DNA from: Chloroflexia bacterium
GTDB lineage: Bacteria > Chloroflexota > Chloroflexia > Thermomicrobiales > CFX8
Direction: 5' to 3'
NCBI GenBank assembly: GCA_030431755.1
Contig: JAUIIK010000024.1
Location: forward strand, 1 to 48,826
Length of the DNA: 48,826 nt
Shown here: one piece after another, positions 13,315 to 30,551 of the stretch
Layout of the letters: the number at the start of each line of letters is the position of its first letter
Numbering within the stretch: position 1 is the stretch's first letter
Notes under the pieces: model-generated
The model's database searches: none
Told to the model about the DNA's origin: nothing
The model's input: only the letters and a program-made list of their open reading frames with translations
Translations under genes and position numbers: made by a program

Positions 13315-13542
13315 GCGAACTGCTCCTCTACCCACAACGTCACTCGCGGCGTTACGAAGGCGAGTAGCACGAAGCGCCCGAGTGGTGACTCGCGGCCATC
13401 ATATCATACCTTGTACGTACACCGCGTCCGGCCATACCGTCAAGGTCGCATCGTGCTTCCTAGCAATGACATCGGTCCCGACCGGAGATACGGCGTGTAC
13501 TCGCTACAACACGCGCGGACGAAGGTAGATACACCACCGATT

Positions 13543-21740: not shown

Positions 21741-23137
21741 GAGACCTCGTCCGGATCCGGCAGCCGCAGCGCCTCGATGACCGTCTCCATCTGCACCCCG
21801 CGTGAGCCTTTCACCAGCACGAGATCACCATCCCGCATCAGATCGCGTAGCGCGACCGTCAGCGTCTCCTTCGAGTCGAAGTGGCGGGCGATCCGCTCCG
21901 GCTGGAGCTCGACGAATTCCTCATAGATAAAGCGGGCACGCTCGCCGACGGTCAACAAGCCATCAGCGACCTCAGCGACACGCCGGCCGACGACGCGGTG
22001 CCCCTCTTCCTCGTACTCGCCCATCTCGAGCATGTCACCGAAGACGGCTATGCGCCGGGTCGCATCGAGCTCTTCGAGCAACGTCAAGGCGGCGTTGCTG
22101 GAGGCGGGATTGGCGTTGTAGTGGTCGTCGAGTATCGTCGCGCCGTTCACCGCCGGCGTCAGGATCAGCCGCAGTTGGACGTCGGGAGACTCGAACCCGC
22201 GCAGAATGTCCGCCAGATCCATGCCTAGCTCGAACCCAACCGCGATCCCAACGAGCGCCATGTGGACACTGTGCCTGCCGAGCAAGGGTACGGCGATGCG
22301 GTCGCTCTGATCGCCTCGCACGAGGGTGAACTGAATGCCTTCCAGGCCAAGCCCGGTGACGTCGGTTGCACGCAAGTCTGCGCCCTCGGCCAATCCATAA
22401 GTCTGAACCCGGCAGCTGGCATGCTCGGCCATCGCCAGCACACGCTCATCGTCGGCATTCAGCAGCGCCAGGCCGTGGTCGGGCAGCGCCTCGACCAGCT
22501 CGACCTTCGTCTGGGCGATGGCTTCGAGCGAGCCCATCCGCGATAGGTGCGAATAGGTCACGTTGGTGACGACGCCGATATCCGGCCGGGCGATCTCGGC
22601 AAGCTCAGTGATCTCGCCAAAGCGATAAGCGCCGCCCATCTCGAGCACGGCGACATCGGTATCCGGCGTCACCTGAAGCACGCTGACCGGCAAGCCGACC
22701 TCGTTGTTGTAGCTACCGGCGCTCTTGAGCACGTCGAACTGCGCTCCAGCAACAGCGGCGATGACCTCTTTCGTGCTCGACTTCCCGATGCTGCCGGTTA
22801 TCCCAACAAGCCGGATGTCGAACAAGCCGCGCCAATGTGCCGCCAGCTCGTGGAGCGCCGCGAGCGTGTCGTCAACGCCGATGACGGCATAGCCGGTGCT
22901 ACGACTGCCGTGTGCTTCGGCCCAGGCATTCCCGGCCAGCACGCCCGTCGCGCCGGCCTCGAGTGCGTTCTCAATAAACTGGTGGCCGTCCATTTCCTCG
23001 CCGGGCAAGGCCACAAAGAGATCCCCTGGTTCGACGAGGCGTGAATCGTGGATCACCTTGCCGAAGAGAGTGTCCGGCGCGGCTTCGCCATAGAGCGTTC
23101 CGCCGGTGCCCTCCAGCACGTCATGGAGACGGATCAT
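21737..23137 (-). CDS. murF: UDP-N-acetylmuramoyl-tripeptide--D-alanyl-D-alanine ligase
   Basis: A 466-residue Mur ligase that adds D-Ala-D-Ala. The P-loop reads GITGSIGKSSTKEV. The stretches AGSYNNEVGLPVSVL and DDHYNANPASSNAAL are diagnostic of MurF and not MurE, and the D-N-P-R motif of diaminopimelate-type MurE is absent. Its ATG overlaps the ftsI stop by 4 bases (ATGA). MurE is normally found between ftsI and murF, and there is no room for it here. Confidence 0.95.
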   Translation of the reverse strand: MIRLHDVLEGTGGTLYGEAAPDTLFGKVIHDSRLVEPGDLFVALPGEEMDGHQFIENALEAGATGVLAGNAWAEAHGSRSTGYAVIGVDDTLAALHELAAHWRGLFDIRLVGITGSIGKSSTKEVIAAVAGAQFDVLKSAGSYNNEVGLPVSVLQVTPDTDVAVLEMGGAYRFGEITELAEIARPDIGVVTNVTYSHLSRMGSLEAIAQTKVELVEALPDHGLALLNADDERVLAMAEHASCRVQTYGLAEGADLRATDVTGLGLEGIQFTLVRGDQSDRIAVPLLGRHSVHMALVGIAVGFELGMDLADILRGFESPDVQLRLILTPAVNGATILDDHYNANPASSNAALTLLEELDATRRIAVFGDMLEMGEYEEEGHRVVGRRVAEVADGLLTVGERARFIYEEFVELQPERIARHFDSKETLTVALRDLMRDGDLVLVKGSRGVQMETVIEALRLPDPDEVS

Positions 23138-24867
23138 CGCGACTCCTCCGGTTGAATGCCGTAGAGCAGGAACAGCTCACGCAGGATCTCGCCGAGCGCC
23201 GGCCCGGCGGCGGTCTCGCCCCAGGGCGTCTCTTGCGGTTCGTCGATCTTCACCAGGACAACAAACTGGGGTTCCTCAACCGGTCCAAAGCCGACGATCG
23301 ACGCGATCGTCGCGTCCTCGACGTAGCCGCCGTCGGGCGACGGAACCTGCGCCGTCCCGGTCTTTGCGCCAATCTCATAGCCCTCAACCTGTGGGTAGGC
23401 TTCATAGCGTCGTTCGACCACCTGATGGAGCATCTCCCGCATGACCGCCGAGGTTTCCTCCGAGATGATCTCCCGTGTCACCTCCGGCTCATGCCGGACG
23501 ACCTCGCCGTCCGGCCGGTGTTCCTCGGCGATGATGTGCGGCTCCATCAGATAGCCGCCATTGACGATGGCCGAGTAGGCGTTCACCATCTGGAGCGGCG
23601 TCACCGCGATACCCTGGCCAAACGCGTTGGTGAAGAAAAGGGTCTCGTTCCAATCGCGCTCCCACGGCTTCGTCAGGATGCCGCGCTCCTCGCCCTGGAG
23701 CTCGATGCCGCTGAGCTTGCCGATGCCGAACTGGGTAAGACGCTGGAAGAGCCGGTCCGCGCCGATCTTCTCGGCGACGTGGATCGCCCCGAGGTTCGAC
23801 GAGCGCACCAGCACCTCGGTCATCGTCTGGACGCCGTAGACATTGCCATTGTTGTTCGTGATTGGCGGGTGTCCCGGAATCTCCCGGTAGCCGGGCGCGT
23901 CATCGAATGTGCTGTCAGCGGTCACGACGCCGTCGTCAATCCCGATGGCCATGACAATCGACTTGAAGGTCGAGCCGGGCTCGTAAACTCGCGAGACAGC
24001 CGGATTGGCGAAGACGCTCAGGTCGTCGGCATTCTGATAGGAATTCGGGTCGTAGACCGGCCAGCTGGCCATACCGAGGATCGCGCCGGTGTTCGGGTCC
24101 TGAACGATGATCGTCCCGCCTTTGGCGCGCTGCTCCCGCACCGTCTCCTCGAGCACTCGCTCGATGAGTAGCTGCACGCCGCTATCGATGGTCAACACGA
24201 TGTCCGAGCCGTCGTCCGGCGGGTCCCAGTAGCTCGGCGTCAAGGCGATGACATTGCCTGCGCCATCGCGCTCGGCGATCAGCGAGCCGGCGTCGCCGCC
24301 GATCACGTCGTCATAGCCGCCCTCGACGCCGTAGTTGCCCTCGTGTTCGACATTCGTGAACCCGAGCACGTGGGCGACGAACTCGCCGTTGGGGTAATAG
24401 CGTAGCGGCTCCGGCTCCAGATAGATGCCGTCGAGCTTCAGCGCCTCGATGGCTTCAACTGCCGCGGGGTCAATCTGCCTGGCAAGCTGGAGCCACTCGA
24501 CATCCGGCGCTGTCAACTGCGCGTGCAGCTCATCAACCGGCCGGCCAAGCAACGGCCCGAGCAACTCGGCGGTATGCCGGGGATCTTCGATGTTGCCGAG
24601 AATCGCCCAGACACGCGCGGACGGCAAATCCGTGGCGAGCAATGTGCCGCGCGCATCATAGATATCGCCGCGGCGCGCCGGGACTGTATCAGCGACAAGC
24701 CGCTCGGCGACCGCCCGGCCAGCCAATTCGTGCGAGCGCACGAGCTGCACCTCGGCCACCCGGTATGCAACGTACCCGGCGAGAATGCCGAAGGCAGCCA
24801 GCAGGAGCAGCGATCGTTTGCGCGAAGGCTCACGCCAGGTGTTGATGCCGCCGGTCGCGTCAGTCAC
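23134..24867 (-). CDS. ftsI: Class B penicillin-binding protein (FtsI/PBP3-type transpeptidase)
   Basis: A 577-residue septal transpeptidase that cross-links peptidoglycan with FtsW. There is one N-terminal membrane anchor (LLLLAAFGILAGYVAYRVA, about 20-38), then a pedestal domain beginning with PARRGDIYDARG. The transpeptidase domain has STFK with the nucleophile at 299, SSN at 356-358 and KTG at 502-504. No PASTA domain follows. The GTG start overlaps the end of the FtsL-like gene by 8 bases. It passes directly into murF. Confidence 0.94.
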   Translation of the reverse strand: MTDATGGINTWREPSRKRSLLLLAAFGILAGYVAYRVAEVQLVRSHELAGRAVAERLVADTVPARRGDIYDARGTLLATDLPSARVWAILGNIEDPRHTAELLGPLLGRPVDELHAQLTAPDVEWLQLARQIDPAAVEAIEALKLDGIYLEPEPLRYYPNGEFVAHVLGFTNVEHEGNYGVEGGYDDVIGGDAGSLIAERDGAGNVIALTPSYWDPPDDGSDIVLTIDSGVQLLIERVLEETVREQRAKGGTIIVQDPNTGAILGMASWPVYDPNSYQNADDLSVFANPAVSRVYEPGSTFKSIVMAIGIDDGVVTADSTFDDAPGYREIPGHPPITNNNGNVYGVQTMTEVLVRSSNLGAIHVAEKIGADRLFQRLTQFGIGKLSGIELQGEERGILTKPWERDWNETLFFTNAFGQGIAVTPLQMVNAYSAIVNGGYLMEPHIIAEEHRPDGEVVRHEPEVTREIISEETSAVMREMLHQVVERRYEAYPQVEGYEIGAKTGTAQVPSPDGGYVEDATIASIVGFGPVEEPQFVVLVKIDEPQETPWGETAAGPALGEILRELFLLYGIQPEESR

Positions 24868-25345
24868 CGGCCGGCCCTTCCGCGTTGCCGGATGAGCCGG
24901 TCAAGCGGTTCCAGAAGCGCTGGAGCGTTGATGGACCTTCTTCCGGAGTCGACTCAGGCTCGGCCTCCACGACAGCCGGTGGTAGTTCGACATCGAGAAA
25001 GACGTAGTCGTCGACCGGCTGCATCCCAAGCTCGAAGCGGGCTGTTGAGTCAACTGCCGGTAGCGCTTGTTTGCCGGCGATCTGCGCCGATAGCCGCTGT
25101 TGCTCGACGAGGGCAGCCTCACGCTCACGCTGCAAAGCAGACATCTCATAGCCAAGGTTCGCTACGTGGTTCGTCTGGAGCAGGTAGAGCATACCCAACG
25201 CGCCGATCACAAGGACCGAGAGCAGTACAACGAGCGCGCCCGGCAACCGTCGCGGCCGCCCAGCCGGCGGCGAGTTCCAGAGATAGTCTGCCGCAGGCGC
25301 TTGGCCCTGGGCTTCCGCCGGTTTCTGGGTGCTTATGACCGTCAT
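24860..25345 (-). CDS. ftsL: FtsL-like septum protein
   Basis: A 161-residue bitopic protein. A proline-rich cytoplasmic N-terminus of about 35 residues is followed by a membrane segment (GALVVLLSVLVIGALGMLYL) and then a heptad-like coiled coil (ANLGYEMSALQREREAALVE). The extracellular tail after about residue 110 is long and rich in Glu and Pro, unlike compact FtsL proteins. Position between rsmH and ftsI, size and topology make it FtsL (or the FtsB/DivIC-like partner); sequence similarity alone would not. Its ATG overlaps the rsmH stop by 4 bases. Confidence 0.7.
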   Translation of the reverse strand: MTVISTQKPAEAQGQAPAADYLWNSPPAGRPRRLPGALVVLLSVLVIGALGMLYLLQTNHVANLGYEMSALQREREAALVEQQRLSAQIAGKQALPAVDSTARFELGMQPVDDYVFLDVELPPAVVEAEPESTPEEGPSTLQRFWNRLTGSSGNAEGPAGD

Positions 25346-26280
25346 GGAAGCCGCTCGGCGACGCGCATGATCGCGCTCCGGGCGCGCGAATTCCGCTCAA
25401 CCTCGGCGTCGCTGGGCCGCACGGGCCGTCCAGAGGAACGCAGGCGTGGCTCCCGGCCACAGGTGCATACTGGCTGGTCCGGCGGGCAGATACAGCCCTT
25501 GACCTCCCGCGCGATGAACTGCTTGACGATACGATCTTCGAGCGAGTGGAAGCTGATGACGACGAGGCGGCCTGCGGGACCGAGGATGCTCAACGCGGCT
25601 TCCAGTCCGCGCTCCAGCTCGGCCAGCTCGTCGTTGACCGCGATGCGTAGCGCCTGGAATGTGCGCGTGGCCGGGTGGATCCGTGCGCCGGGTGGCCGGC
25701 CAATCGTTGCCTCGACGATCTCCGCCAGCCGGGTCGTCGTCACGATTGGCCGGTTGGCGCGCTCACGGACAATCGCCCGCGCGATTCTGCGCGCCTGCCG
25801 CTCCTCGCCATAGTCGTAGAGCAGCTGGACAAGCTCGGCTTCGCTGAGCCGCGCGAGAAGCGCCGACGCGGGTTCGCCGCTGGCGCTGTCCATCCGCATA
25901 TCGAGTGGCCCTTCCCGCAGGAAGCTAAACCCGCGCTCGGCGTCGTCGAGCTGTAGCGACGAGAGACCGAGGTCGAGGAGCACGCCATCGACGGGGTCGA
26001 AATTGCGCGCCGCTGCCTCGGCGGCCATTTCCGAGAACGGAGCGTTGACAAAGATGATCTGCGCATCAACGCGAGTCGCCAGCGCCTCAGCGCGTAGAGC
26101 GGCGTCGGCATCGCGGTCAAAGGCGAGAATCGCGCCCGCGCTGCCGGCGCGTTCGGCGATGCCGGCGCAGTGTCCGCCCGCGCCGAAGGTGCCGTCAACG
26201 TAGAAGCCGCCCGACGATACGCGCAGCGCTTCGAGGGCTTCATCACGCAGGACCGGGATATGTCCAGGCTCGCCGGGCAT
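25342..26280 (-). CDS. rsmH: 16S rRNA (cytosine(1402)-N(4))-methyltransferase
   Basis: A 312-residue RsmH/MraW methyltransferase that modifies C1402 of 16S rRNA in the ribosomal P site. It starts GHIPVLRDEALEAL, has the S-adenosylmethionine loop DGTFGAGGHCAGI, and the C-terminal TRTFQALRIAVNDEL and VISFHSLEDRIVKQF family motifs. The ATG at 26280 is chosen because AGGAGGGA lies 6-8 bases upstream; the longer frame runs into mraZ. It is 89 bases downstream of mraZ, the only sizeable gap in this part of the cluster. Confidence 0.95.
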   Translation of the reverse strand: MPGEPGHIPVLRDEALEALRVSSGGFYVDGTFGAGGHCAGIAERAGSAGAILAFDRDADAALRAEALATRVDAQIIFVNAPFSEMAAEAAARNFDPVDGVLLDLGLSSLQLDDAERGFSFLREGPLDMRMDSASGEPASALLARLSEAELVQLLYDYGEERQARRIARAIVRERANRPIVTTTRLAEIVEATIGRPPGARIHPATRTFQALRIAVNDELAELERGLEAALSILGPAGRLVVISFHSLEDRIVKQFIAREVKGCICPPDQPVCTCGREPRLRSSGRPVRPSDAEVERNSRARSAIMRVAERLP

Positions 26281-26369
26281 CCTGGCTCCCTCCTGGCTGT
26301 CTAGCGTCAAAGCAGGCATGAACATCGCTGGTGTGTTGATCCCATATACGCCGCGCAACGTCTGTCGGA

Positions 26370-26798
26370 CTAGATCAGCTCCGCCAACCGTTCCGCGACC
26401 GCCTGTCCGTCGCGGTCGAGCGCCGAGCGCTCGGACAACCACTGCTCCGGACTCCAGATTTCGATAAATGTATGCATGCCGGTGACGACCGCATCACGAT
26501 CGAGGCCGGCATAGTCGCGGAGTCCCGAGGGGATCAGGATGCGGCCCTGTTTGTCGAGCTCAAGATCCGCCGCGTCGGCAAAGAGCAACCGCCGCAACGC
26601 GCGTACATCTGGATCGCCGATAGATAGCTCCGACACGCGCTTGGCCAGCGGTAGCCACTCGGCCATTGGATAGACGAGCAGACAAGCGTCGAAGCCGCGC
26701 GTTACAACGACTCCGTCAGAAAGCTGGTCGCGATACCGGGCAGGCAACGCCAAACGCCCTTTGGTGTCGACGGAATGATCGAATCGTCCAAGAAACAC
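26370..26798 (-). CDS. mraZ: Transcriptional regulator MraZ
   Basis: A 142-residue protein with two SpoVT/AbrB-type DNA-binding repeats: DTKGRLALPARYRD near residues 11-24 and LDKQGRILIPSGLRD near 80-94. MraZ forms large rings and represses its own dcw operon by binding tandem G-rich boxes upstream. The start is GTG at 26798. The gene heads the division cluster, and four boxes of the expected type and spacing lie just upstream at 26851-26890. Confidence 0.95.
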   Translation of the reverse strand: MFLGRFDHSVDTKGRLALPARYRDQLSDGVVVTRGFDACLLVYPMAEWLPLAKRVSELSIGDPDVRALRRLLFADAADLELDKQGRILIPSGLRDYAGLDRDAVVTGMHTFIEIWSPEQWLSERSALDRDGQAVAERLAELI

Positions 26799-26840: not shown

Positions 26841-26849
26841 TTATCCACA
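26841..26849 (+). promoter_or_regulatory. Perfect DnaA box (TTATCCACA) in the mraZ leader
   Basis: TTATCCACA matches the high-affinity DnaA box consensus exactly. It is directly next to the last GTGGGG box, between the -10 element and the mraZ start. Only one full box is seen, so this is not an origin. Regulation of the division cluster by DnaA is an inference. Confidence 0.5.
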
Positions 26850-26850
26850 T

Positions 26851-26890
26851 CGCGCCCCACTTTTCCCCACTCGACCCCACAACTGTCCAC
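26851..26890 (-). promoter_or_regulatory. MraZ operator: four GTGGGG-type direct repeats with 10-bp period
   Basis: Read on the minus strand the four consecutive decamers are GTGGACAGTT, GTGGGGTCGA, GTGGGGAAAA and GTGGGGCGCG. The 5-6 base core repeats exactly every 10 bp. Known MraZ sites are TGGG-type direct repeats spaced at one helical turn just upstream of mraZ, so these are very likely its operator. They lie immediately downstream of the -10 box, over the expected transcription start, where binding would block RNA polymerase. Confidence 0.8.
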
Positions 26891-26920
26891 AGTATAGCCA
26901 TTTGCGAAGTGTACGTACAA
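26891..26920 (-). promoter_or_regulatory. Promoter of mraZ and the dcw cluster
   Basis: TATACT at 26891-26896 (minus strand) matches the -10 consensus in five of six positions. TTGTAC at 26915-26920, with an 18-base spacer, is a weak -35 with the TTG core. The -10 directly abuts the MraZ boxes. The start would fall in the first box, giving a leader of about 80-90 bases before the mraZ GTG. Confidence 0.6.
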
Positions 26921-26990: not shown

Positions 26991-28724
26991 TCAGTCTTCG
27001 ATGACCGCGACGAGATCGCCGGTCCGGACTGTCGCGCCAGCCTCGACTGCCAGCGTGACGACGGTGCCACTCACCGGTGCGGTCAGCTCGTTCTCCATCT
27101 TCATCGCTTCGACCACGCAGATTAGATCGCCGGCCTCGACCGTGTCGCCGGTTTCCACGGCAACCGACAGTACCGTGCCCTGAATCGGGCTCATCAACTC
27201 GCCGCTCGATGCGGCCCGCGCACGGCCCGCACGACCACGCGAGCCAGCCCCCGGCGACGCTCTCCGGGCAGTCGCACCAGTGGCTGCAAGCGACTCAGGC
27301 AGCTTCACGCGGTAGCTGCGGCCATCAACCTCGACAACGATCGCATCGCCATCTTCGGGCTCGTCGGACGGCAGCTCAGTCGGAGTCAATCCATCGGCTA
27401 CCTTGGTCAGTTCCAAATAGCGCGTGTCATAGTCGCCGGCCTTGAAATCGGGGCGGCGCAGGATATGGCGGTAGAGCTCAATGGTCGTGGCGACGCCCGA
27501 CACCTCGAAATCGGCCAGCGCCCGGTCGAGACGGCTCAATGCCTCTGCTCGGTTGCGGCCGCGAACGACGAGCTTGGCGATCAGGTTGTCGAAGCGCGGA
27601 TCGACCTCGTCGCCCGCCTCGAAGCCGGTGTCGACGCGGATGCCAAACCCCGACGGCGGCGCGTAGCTCGCCAGCTTGCCCGGCGTCGGCGCGAAGTCCC
27701 GCGCCGGGTCCTCGGCATTGATCCGGCACTCGATCGCGTGGCCAAAGAGCCGCGGCGACCCGTCGAACGACAGCGGCTCACCACTCGCTACCCGCAACTG
27801 CTCGCGCACGAGGTCGATCCCGGTGATCTCCTCAGTGATCGGGTGCTCGACCTGAATACGTGTGTTCATTTCGAGGAAAAAGAAATCTCCGTCGCTGAAG
27901 AGGAACTCGACTGTGCCCGCTCCAACATAGTCAACCTCTTGCGCCAGCCGGACAGCCGTGGCGTTCATCCGCTCGCGCGTCGCGGCGTCGAGGGCCGGCG
28001 ACGGCGCTTCCTCGATCAGCTTCTGGTGGCGGCGCTGGATCGAGCAGTCGCGCTCGCCGAGTCCCACCGCGTTGCCATGCTGGTCGGCAAAGACCTGGAT
28101 CTCGATATGCCGTGGATGCTCCAAGTATTTCTCAACGTAGACTGCCGGATTACCAAAGTAGCGTTCGCCTTCGCCGCTCGCCTGCCGCCAGGCTTCCTCG
28201 ATCCCGGCCTCGTCCCAGGCGACTTTGAAGCCCCGGCCACCGCCGCCGGCGACCGCTTTCAGCGCCACCGGGTAGCCATGGTCCTGGCCAAACTCACGGG
28301 CTGCCTCGACATCGACTGGCTCGCCACTGCCGGGCACAATCGGCACCTCGGCGCGCTCGGCAACGGCACGGGCACGCACCTTGTCGCCCATCGCGTCGAT
28401 GGCATCAGCCGGCGGGCCGACAAAGATGAGCCCGGCAGCGGCGCAGGCTCGCGCGAACGCGGCGTTCTCGGCCAGGAAACCGTAGCCGGGATGAATTGCA
28501 TCTACGCCCGTTGACAGCGCGGCAGATAGCACAGCGTCTGCGTCTAGGTAGGGAATCGGGTTTGCGGAGACGATCTCGACAGCTTCGTCGGCATACCGCG
28601 TGTGGCGCGCATCCTGCTCGCCGTCGCTGTAGACGGCAACGCTGGCGATCCGTTCTTCACGGCAGGCCCGCATGACACGTAGCGCGATCTCGCCGCGGTT
28701 TGCGACCAGCACTTTCCGGATCAT
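26991..28724 (-). CDS. Acyl-CoA carboxylase alpha subunit (biotin carboxylase fused to biotin carrier)
   Basis: A 577-residue fusion. Residues 1 to about 450 are the biotin carboxylase: MIRKVLVANRGEIALRVMRA, the ATP-grasp glycine loop GGGGRGFKVA, and EMNTRIQVEHPITEEITG. After a linker rich in Arg, Gly and Ala comes the biotin carrier domain, with the biotinyl-lysine at about 542 in VEAMKMENEL. It carboxylates biotin with bicarbonate and ATP for an acetyl- or propionyl-CoA carboxylase; the partner carboxyltransferase lies two genes upstream. The ATG at 28724 is chosen from homology, with a GGGGTGG sequence upstream. The acyl substrate cannot be fixed from this subunit. Confidence 0.93.
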   Translation of the reverse strand: MIRKVLVANRGEIALRVMRACREERIASVAVYSDGEQDARHTRYADEAVEIVSANPIPYLDADAVLSAALSTGVDAIHPGYGFLAENAAFARACAAAGLIFVGPPADAIDAMGDKVRARAVAERAEVPIVPGSGEPVDVEAAREFGQDHGYPVALKAVAGGGGRGFKVAWDEAGIEEAWRQASGEGERYFGNPAVYVEKYLEHPRHIEIQVFADQHGNAVGLGERDCSIQRRHQKLIEEAPSPALDAATRERMNATAVRLAQEVDYVGAGTVEFLFSDGDFFFLEMNTRIQVEHPITEEITGIDLVREQLRVASGEPLSFDGSPRLFGHAIECRINAEDPARDFAPTPGKLASYAPPSGFGIRVDTGFEAGDEVDPRFDNLIAKLVVRGRNRAEALSRLDRALADFEVSGVATTIELYRHILRRPDFKAGDYDTRYLELTKVADGLTPTELPSDEPEDGDAIVVEVDGRSYRVKLPESLAATGATARRASPGAGSRGRAGRARAASSGELMSPIQGTVLSVAVETGDTVEAGDLICVVEAMKMENELTAPVSGTVVTLAVEAGATVRTGDLVAVIED

Positions 28725-28776
28725 TGTCCACCACCCCGCACTGCTGCCGGCACTCGCGGCCCCCAAGAACTACTCA

Positions 28777-28989
28777 TCAGAATCTCGATGTGGAACGCAG
28801 CCGCGCGCGGTCGAGCCAGCTCCGGCGCGTTGCCTGCCGTAGCTCACCGCCGGGTCTGGCCCGTTGTTTCCAGCGCGACGCAGGCTGGCCACCGTCATCG
28901 GCAGCAACAACGGCGCGGATCGCGGCCATGATCGCGGCGACGATCTCAGGCGTCGGCTCGTTGGCCTTTGGACCAAACCGCCTACTCAA
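28777..28989 (-). CDS. Small acyl-CoA carboxylase operon protein (epsilon-like)
   Basis: A 70-residue protein between the carboxyltransferase and biotin carboxylase genes. It has an N-terminal helix ([19 protein letters not shown]) and a basic Trp-containing C-terminal part ([22 protein letters not shown]). This layout resembles small accessory subunits of acyl-CoA carboxylases, such as the actinobacterial epsilon subunit, that help hold the complex together. The TTG start overlaps the stop of the carboxyltransferase by 4 bases (TTGA), which favours this frame over a competing 68-residue frame. The role is inferred from position and shape. Confidence 0.65.
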
Positions 28990-30551
28990 AGCGGCACGTT
29001 CCCATGCTTGCGAGCGGGCCGGATCTCCTGCTTCGTCTCCAGCAGATCGAGCGAGCGGATCAGAGCCGCGCGCGTGTCACGCGGCCAGATGACCGCTTCG
29101 ATGTGCCCGCGGCCGGCTGCCTGGAACGGGTTTGCGAACTCTTCGCGGTACTCCGCCGCCAGCTCGGTTTCCTTCGCCGCCGCGTCGTCGGCCTCGGCAA
29201 TCTCGCGCCGGTGGATCAAGCGCACCGCCGCTTCCGGCCCCATCACCGCGATCTCCGCCGTCGGCCAGGCGAACGAAGCGTCGGCCCGGATCGAGCGGGA
29301 CGACATGACGACGTATGCGCCGCCGTAGGCCTTGCGCGTGATGACGGTCAGCTTCGGCACCGTCGCTTCGCAGTAGGCATAGAGCAGCTTCGAGCCATGC
29401 CGGATAATGCCGCCATGCTCCTGGTCGACGCCGGGCAGAAACCCCGGCACGTCAACGAAGGTGATCAACGGGATGTTGAAGGCGTCACAGAAACGGACGA
29501 AGCGCGCCGCTTTCGTCGAGGCGTCGATGTCGAGCGTACCGGCCAGCACCTGCGGCTGGTTGGCGACGATGCCGACCGAGCGCCCGTCGATCCGGCCAAA
29601 GCCGACGATCATATTCTCCGCCCAGTGGGGCTGGACCTCAAGGAACTCGCCTTCGTCGACGATCCGTGAGATGACCTGGTGCATATCGTAGGAACGGGTC
29701 GGCTCCGGCGGGACGATGTCGTCAAGCTCGGCGTCAAGCGCCGGATCGCGTGGCGGTGCGCTGTAGCGCGGCGGGTCATCGACGTTGTTCGGTGGCAGGA
29801 AGGACATGAGGTAGCGCACCGACTCGAACATCTCGTCCTCGTCGGCCGAGGCAAAATGGGCGACGCCCGAGACGCCCGTATGGGTCGCCGCGCCGCCGAG
29901 CGCCTCGTGGGTCACATCCTCGCCGGTCACCGTCTTGACGACGTCCGGGCCGGTGATGAACATCTGGGATATGTCTTCGACCATGAAGACGAAGTCGGTC
30001 ATCGCCGGCGAATAGACCGCGCCGCCGGCGCACGGCCCGGCGATCAGCGAGATCTGCGGCACGACGCCGCTAGCCTGGACATTCCTCCAGAAAACCTCGC
30101 CGTATCCCGCCAACCCTTCGACACCCTCCTGAATACGCGCCCCGGCGGAGTCGTTGATGCCGATGATCGGGCACCCGACCTTCAACGCCAGGTCCATAAT
30201 CTTGGTGACCTTGAGCGCGAAGGCCTCGCCGAGCGAACCGCCGTAGGTCGTGAAATCGTGGGAGAAGACGGCCACCTTGCGGCCATCGATCGTGCCGAAG
30301 CCGGTGATGACCCCGTCGCCGTATGGCCTCCGACGCTCCATGCCGAAGCGCCGCGAGCGGTGCTGCACGAGCGCGTCGATCTCGTCGAAGCTGCCGGGAT
30401 CGAGCAAGCGCTCGACGCGCTCCAGCGCCGAAAGCTTCTCACGGCCATGCTGGCGCTCGGCGGCACCCTCGCGTTCGACATCCAGAGCCGTCAAGCGCTC
30501 TTGAAAACGCTCCTGCTCGTGCCGCAATTCGGACTCTGTCTCCGACGCCAT
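28986..30551 (-). CDS. pccB: Acyl-CoA carboxylase carboxyltransferase (beta) subunit, PccB family
   Basis: A 521-residue carboxyltransferase with two crotonase-fold halves, the usual size. N-half signs are [20 protein letters not shown], the oxyanion-type [12 protein letters not shown], and [15 protein letters not shown]-half signs are [21 protein letters not shown] and [12 protein letters not shown]. It moves the carboxyl group from biotin to an acyl-CoA, most likely propionyl-CoA or acetyl-CoA; the specificity residue was not assigned. GAGGGGGA lies about 5 bases before the ATG. It is first in an operon with the small subunit and the alpha subunit. Confidence 0.9.

Follow-up and report, generated by a model that had tools for sequence, protein, structure and literature searches.

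The mraZ gene of a Chloroflexia bacterium (NCBI GenBank assembly GCA_030431755.1) heads a dcw cluster in the 48,826-nucleotide stretch of DNA analysed here (the window), and the repeats upstream of this gene raise the question of whether its promoter carries an MraZ operator only or an MraZ operator combined with sites for the replication initiator DnaA. Read from the sequence on the minus strand, positions 26890 down to 26851 are GTGGACAGTT GTGGGGTCGA GTGGGGAAAA GTGGGGCGCG, four decamers that all start with GTGG, and with GTGGGG in three cases, and that follow one another at exact 10-bp steps between the TATACT -10 element and mraZ. The initial annotation had described these decamers, how they are spaced and that they follow the -10 element, without giving a strand, and the description was exact for the minus strand. 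The complete minus-strand order is TATACT-GTGGACAGTT-GTGGGGTCGA-GTGGGGAAAA-GTGGGGCGCG-A-TGTGGATAAC, with the array directly behind the -10 element, and the transcription start is predicted to fall over the array. At least three GTGGG-type direct repeats at 10-bp steps are present, namely M1 to M3 (26880-26851, minus strand), together with an in-phase GTGG at 26890. We refer to the two elements that frame M1 to M3 as D1 and D2 herein (Table 1). D1 abuts the -10 element and keeps the 10-bp phase of the array, and D2 is out of phase, being set 12 bp after M3 and 42 bp after D1; TGTGGATAA at D2 is separated by 42 bases from the GTG start codon of mraZ (26798). The TTGTAC hexamer is also found 16-18 bp upstream of the -10 element in the three other relatives from family f1, and a consensus promoter scan returned no promoter at its threshold at the mraZ site.

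Table 1. Elements of the mraZ promoter and genes of the dcw cluster, in window coordinates.
Feature	Position	Strand	Basis
Possible -35 hexamer TTGTAC	26915..26920	-	Sequence; 18-bp spacer to the -10
-10 element TATACT	26891..26896	-	Sequence; most relatives have a TATAMT-like hexamer there
D1, DnaA-box-like TGTGGACAG; doubles as the first in-phase GTGG box	26883..26891	-	One mismatch to TTRTCCACA
M1, MraZ box GTGGGGTCGA	26871..26880	-	Pattern count, sequence, relatives
M2, MraZ box GTGGGGAAAA	26861..26870	-	Pattern count, sequence, relatives
M3, MraZ box GTGGGGCGCG	26851..26860	-	Pattern count, sequence, relatives
D2, DnaA box TGTGGATAA (TTATCCACA on the plus strand)	26841..26849	-	Exact 9-mer
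mraZ (GTG start), heading the dcw cluster	26370..26798	-	TIGR00242 138.3 bits (cut-off 98.35); PF02381 twice over cut-off
rsmH (mraW) frame	25342..26442	-	TIGR00006 327.2 bits (cut-off 154.3)
FtsI/SpoVD-type penicillin-binding protein	23134..24867	-	TIGR02214 as top NCBIfam match, 410.2 bits (below cut-off of 688)

Since mraZ and rsmH both score over their family cut-offs, FtsA is encoded in the window too (TIGR01174, over cut-off) and the arrangement is conserved in relatives, the array lies upstream of an mraZ that heads a dcw cluster and encodes the cognate MraZ, a protein for which four distinct sequences have solved structures. As similarity to the rsmH family begins at residue 60, we place the true start of rsmH downstream of the first start codon of its frame. 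On the same strand, the genes for a carrier-domain-fused biotin carboxylase and an mmdA-type carboxyltransferase (26991-28766 and 28986-30551) end just before the dcw promoter. A terminator scan found none, which makes it conceivable that transcription reads through into mraZ.

The array is unique in its genome. The pattern GTGGN6GTGGN6GTGG was found at this place only within the window, with two matches that overlap (100 shuffles gave an expectation of 0.01), a four-box pattern was found in none of 150 simulated windows, and GTGGGN5GTGGGN5GTGG occurred once in the 5.1-Mb genome. Together with conservation in relatives, these counts ruled out a chance origin of the array. MraZ was present in 127 of the 158 genomes of the class, and the upstream region was read for 124 of them; G010, whose only copy (L132) was filed among the second copies, and G023 and G063, with a weak or partial match, were set aside, and the L009 and L041 regions were shorter than 400 bp because of contig ends. 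Upstream of mraZ, at least three in-phase TGG boxes were found in 120 of these 124 class members and two in the other four, which bore out the conservation expected of an operator. The proposal in the initial annotation that the array is an autoregulatory MraZ operator on the dcw promoter is therefore supported by position, cognate protein, genome uniqueness and conservation. Its further point, that the array is longer than the three-box sites of Escherichia coli, does not make the array unusual, because a four-repeat MraZ site over the start site has been published for Burkholderia cenocepacia: as described in the available part of that report, a direct repeat with a period of 10 nt (7 + 3) occurs four times behind the -10 element of the dcw operon, overlapping the transcription start, and a fragment carrying these repeats was bound by MraZ in a gel shift (PMC7761207).

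Most sister families have three GTGGGG boxes, often joined in f6 by a fourth GTGG behind the -10 element. Several f6 genomes encode a second, more divergent MraZ (for example L128-L131, L133 and L134) with no in-phase boxes upstream, and no in-phase array was found upstream of any of the seven further or second MraZ copies whose upstream regions were read (L128-L134). In a Lachnospiraceae record (L004), GTGG repeats precede mraZ and a DnaA box is absent. In the mraZ leaders of f6 and f8 (for example L054, L062 and L091), a GAACN4GTTC palindrome resembling a LexA box begins 9-11 bp from where the last MraZ box starts; it is exact in 7/36 f6 and 3/6 f8 regions, and 19 and 6 regions, respectively, have it when one mismatch is allowed. 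In the window's order, GAACN4GTTC was found in 0/38 mraZ regions 5-40 bp behind the last box, and no LexA box was recognised there; upstream of lexA itself, the palindrome was present at 13/13 loci of the window's order, and its exact form was absent from the nine f6 and four f8 loci examined.

The distinguishing feature of the window's order, comprising families f1, f2, f4 and f5 with 38 mraZ regions, lies at the ends of the array. Counted without alignment, GTGGAYAA was present in 38/38 of these regions and in at least two copies in 24 of them, and in the same orientation it was found in none of the 78 mraZ regions of the five sister families f6-f10. Searching both strands for TGTGGAYAA revealed a copy in the opposite orientation in 4 of 23 f9 regions, and not one of the 247 array boxes in 79 sister mraZ regions was GTGGAYAA. 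In the aligned set of 37 regions (G101 did not fit), M1 was GTGGG in 35 and M2 in all 37, and D1 was GTGGAYAA in 32, with GTGGAYAAC the usual first box. D2 started with GTGGA in 37/37 aligned regions and was GTGGAYAA in 28, the other nine having different GTGGA forms, either GTGGAAAA-like or GTGGAGAA; the base preceding D2 was other than T in 11. These results divide the reading of four MraZ boxes in the initial annotation: it stood for the inner boxes, and did not hold for the outermost, which in this order is mostly other than a plain MraZ box and across relatives reads GTGGAYAAC, a DnaA-box sequence. Neither D2 nor the likeness of D1 to a DnaA box had been described in the initial annotation.

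The spacing of the two outer elements was also conserved. The last MraZ box and D2 were 12 bp apart in 36 regions and 11 bp apart in one, and D1 and D2 were 42 bp apart in 37 pairs and 41 bp apart in two when f12-f14 were also covered and GTGGAAAA and GTGGAGAA were counted. As 42 bp is about four helical turns at 10.5 bp per turn, the 12-bp step, which is odd for an MraZ array, would bring both outer elements onto one face of the DNA. Direct GTGGAYAA pairs were rare: the 38 genomes of the order contained 52 altogether, of which 24 lay at mraZ, and for nine genomes the mraZ pair was the sole one. The window's own genome lacks the strict pair at this site, since its D1 is GTGGACAG.

D2 on the minus strand, TGTGGATAA, is the reverse complement of TTATCCACA, which we take to be the classical DnaA box, and is its sole exact copy within the window (0.09 expected). 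When matched against TTATCCACA or TTRTCCACA, D2 was exact, and D1, read as CTGTCCACA, had a single mismatch to the DnaA box. The T/C variation in GTGGAYAA equals the A/G variation in TTRTCCAC. The DnaA-box consensus given in the accessible part of a published account is TTWTNCACA (PMC7561715). The window's genome encodes a DnaA protein (TIGR00362, 534.9 bits against a cut-off of 343.9) with the helix-turn-helix segment NRDHSTIMHG, and TGTGGAYAA is scarce in it, with 27 sites versus 10 for the reversed control; one of these sites lies ~70 bp ahead of the position where the dnaA match starts, and another is D2. Within 500 bp upstream of dnaA, TTATCCACA was present at 14/16 sister-family loci, and the exact 9-mer was absent upstream of dnaA at 20 of 22 f1-f5 loci, being present only in G000 and G101. 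We considered whether the sister families had changed their DnaA box, making its absence from their mraZ regions an artefact; this was ruled out by the TTATCCACA copies upstream of their dnaA genes.

The same 9-mers also occur in clusters. A mostly non-coding stretch of the window's own genome (G000:C236:31021-31813, L245) contains three exact DnaA boxes in 800 bp, near-boxes, an AT-rich segment and one TGTACGTACA; it does not adjoin dnaA and is a candidate replication origin. Counted over 6 kb, this cluster has 6 boxes against a shuffle mean of 1.7 and is weaker evidence, since 6 is within the shuffle maximum of 8. Clusters in G113, G118, G125 and G147 have 4, 5, 5 and 11 boxes, respectively, with at most one mismatch per box, in 2 kb, versus shuffle means of 0.4-0.6, and the box clusters in these five genomes of the order are candidate origins. 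The G147 cluster (f5) includes TTATCCACC twice; this is the variant seen at mraZ in f5, where D2 is preceded by G (GGTGGATAA type) in 8/15 regions.

The palindrome TGTACGTACA occurs in the window at 26910-26919 in the mraZ promoter, where it overlaps the possible -35 hexamer, and at 13412-13421 upstream of ftsA. There are 31 exact copies in the genome versus one of the reversed control, plus five TGTACGTATA. The palindrome is specific to the order, with 1-45 copies per genome in 61 f1-f5 genomes and 0-9 in the other 97 (0-13 for their control), and its sites include dnaA, mraZ, ftsA and the origin candidate. Among 20 neighbouring frames scanned, matches were found to ThyX, HD phosphohydrolase, MutL, RecJ, UvrA (below cut-off), sigma-70 region 2, AlaS, FliP, MotA and a flagellar rod protein. 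Its distribution suggests that TGTACGTACA may mark a cell-cycle or housekeeping regulon of some regulator.

The arrangement at mraZ recurs beyond the class. The composite pattern GTGGN6GTGGN8GTGGAYAA was found at 17 places in 16 of 400 genomes of the phylum, compared with 3 for the reversed control, and 13 of the 17 lie upstream of frames readable as MraZ by eye. Six of these 13 are in f34, f39 and f75, outside the class, and have two MraZ boxes between elements 32 bp apart, or ~three helical turns. Two further places, G191:C44:27082-27111 (L166) and G388:C51:123928-123957 (L165), each carry three successive DnaA-box sequences, GTGGATAA, spaced by 10 and 12 bp as in the mraZ composite; no MraZ frame was found within 700 bases downstream of either. 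The two remaining places look like chance matches.

Taken as a whole, we consider it probable, on sequence and comparative grounds, that the site is a composite MraZ and DnaA operator that ties dcw expression to the replication state. Counting against this reading are the mismatch in the window's own D1, the D2 forms other than GTGGAYAA in some relatives, and the lack of an exact TTATCCACA upstream of most f1-f5 dnaA genes. The strongest competitor is a plain MraZ operator of four or five boxes, in which GTGGAYAAC is the form that the end boxes take in this order and is read by MraZ rather than DnaA. D1 sits in exact 10-bp phase and has GTGG in common with the array, so MraZ may read it, and four-repeat MraZ sites are known. 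In E. coli, moreover, the available text reports that MraZ binds a site overlapping the DnaA box of the mioC promoter (PMC4446571, citing Eraso et al. 2014), and such a box may therefore be acceptable to MraZ. We nevertheless regard this explanation as rather unlikely, because D2 is out of phase by its 12-bp step and fixed at 42 bp from D1, ATAA with a T/C choice at one position fits the variation of DnaA boxes, the array boxes of the sister families include no GTGGAYAA, and the sister operators manage without such ends.

It is less likely still that the outer elements are sites of a third protein with a DnaA-box-like site, or RNA elements in the transcribed leader. D2 does lie within the presumed leader, and TGTACGTACA in this order and GAACN4GTTC in the sister families suggest that the promoter attracts other regulators; however, the 9-mer matches the consensus for DnaA and is found again in origin-like clusters and close to dnaA. 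That the resemblance arose by chance in a GC-rich region can be all but dismissed. A single TTATCCACA arose in 9 of 100 window shuffles and so is not very rare, but position and spacing are kept across the order and the simulated windows contained no four-box array.

For the composite operator, MraZ on M1-M3 (and possibly D1), immediately behind the -10 element, would block transcription of its own operon, as at other MraZ operators. DnaA on D1 and D2 could add to, compete with or relieve this repression, and could either link it to the nucleotide state of DnaA or exclude MraZ; expression of the dcw cluster would thereby sense the DnaA level or the replication state. Binding of MraZ, binding of DnaA and the sign of the DnaA effect are all predictions from the arrangement of the sites.

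Parts of this arrangement have precedents. The B. cenocepacia operator shares the four 10-nt repeats behind the -10 element, and differs in that DnaA boxes are not mentioned in the available part of that report, while the ends here are DnaA-box sequences. The MraZ site of Mollicutes, (AAAGTGKN3)3, likewise has GTG-core direct repeats with a 10-nt period at a dcw promoter with a cognate MraZ, but it comprises three repeats with AT-rich spacers, and framing elements are not mentioned in the accessible portions of the two reports (PMC5282649, PMC8475190). At the E. coli mioC promoter, too, a DnaA box and a site for MraZ share the promoter DNA; as far as the available source describes it, this is not a dcw promoter, and the two sites overlap there instead of one framing the other as they do here. 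Among division-gene promoters, of which the present site is also one, the ftsL promoter region of Bacillus subtilis and, in vitro, the Caulobacter ftsZ promoter are reported as sites of DnaA (PMC8203912), and an MraZ array is not mentioned for either in the part of that review at hand. The same part of the review states that no species has a demonstrated major impact of DnaA transcriptional activity on the timing of cytokinesis, and that DnaA boxes near E. coli ftsZ have no effect on ftsZ transcription (PMC8203912); the ftsZ case counts against the composite reading. Loss of mraZ in E. coli is described, in the literature excerpts available, as having no apparent phenotype. A search of the open-access literature on MraZ, ftsL or dcw with DnaA found no report of an MraZ array framed by DnaA boxes. 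The MraZ operator and its four-repeat form over the start site are therefore known, and the DnaA-framed form is apparently new.

Since the MraZ site is framed by DnaA-box-like sequences, the division genes may switch in step with replication. With confidence only a little above even, we propose that MraZ and DnaA jointly switch the dcw promoter throughout this order and in some further families of the Chloroflexota, with in-register DnaA boxes bracketing the array, the level or nucleotide state of the initiator directly controlling division-cluster expression, and the two proteins competing for the DNA or sharing it. Such a composite operator suggests a role for MraZ as a partner or competitor of DnaA. 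For the coupling of replication and division, a conserved DnaA-framed repressor site at fixed helical spacing would offer a compact test case.
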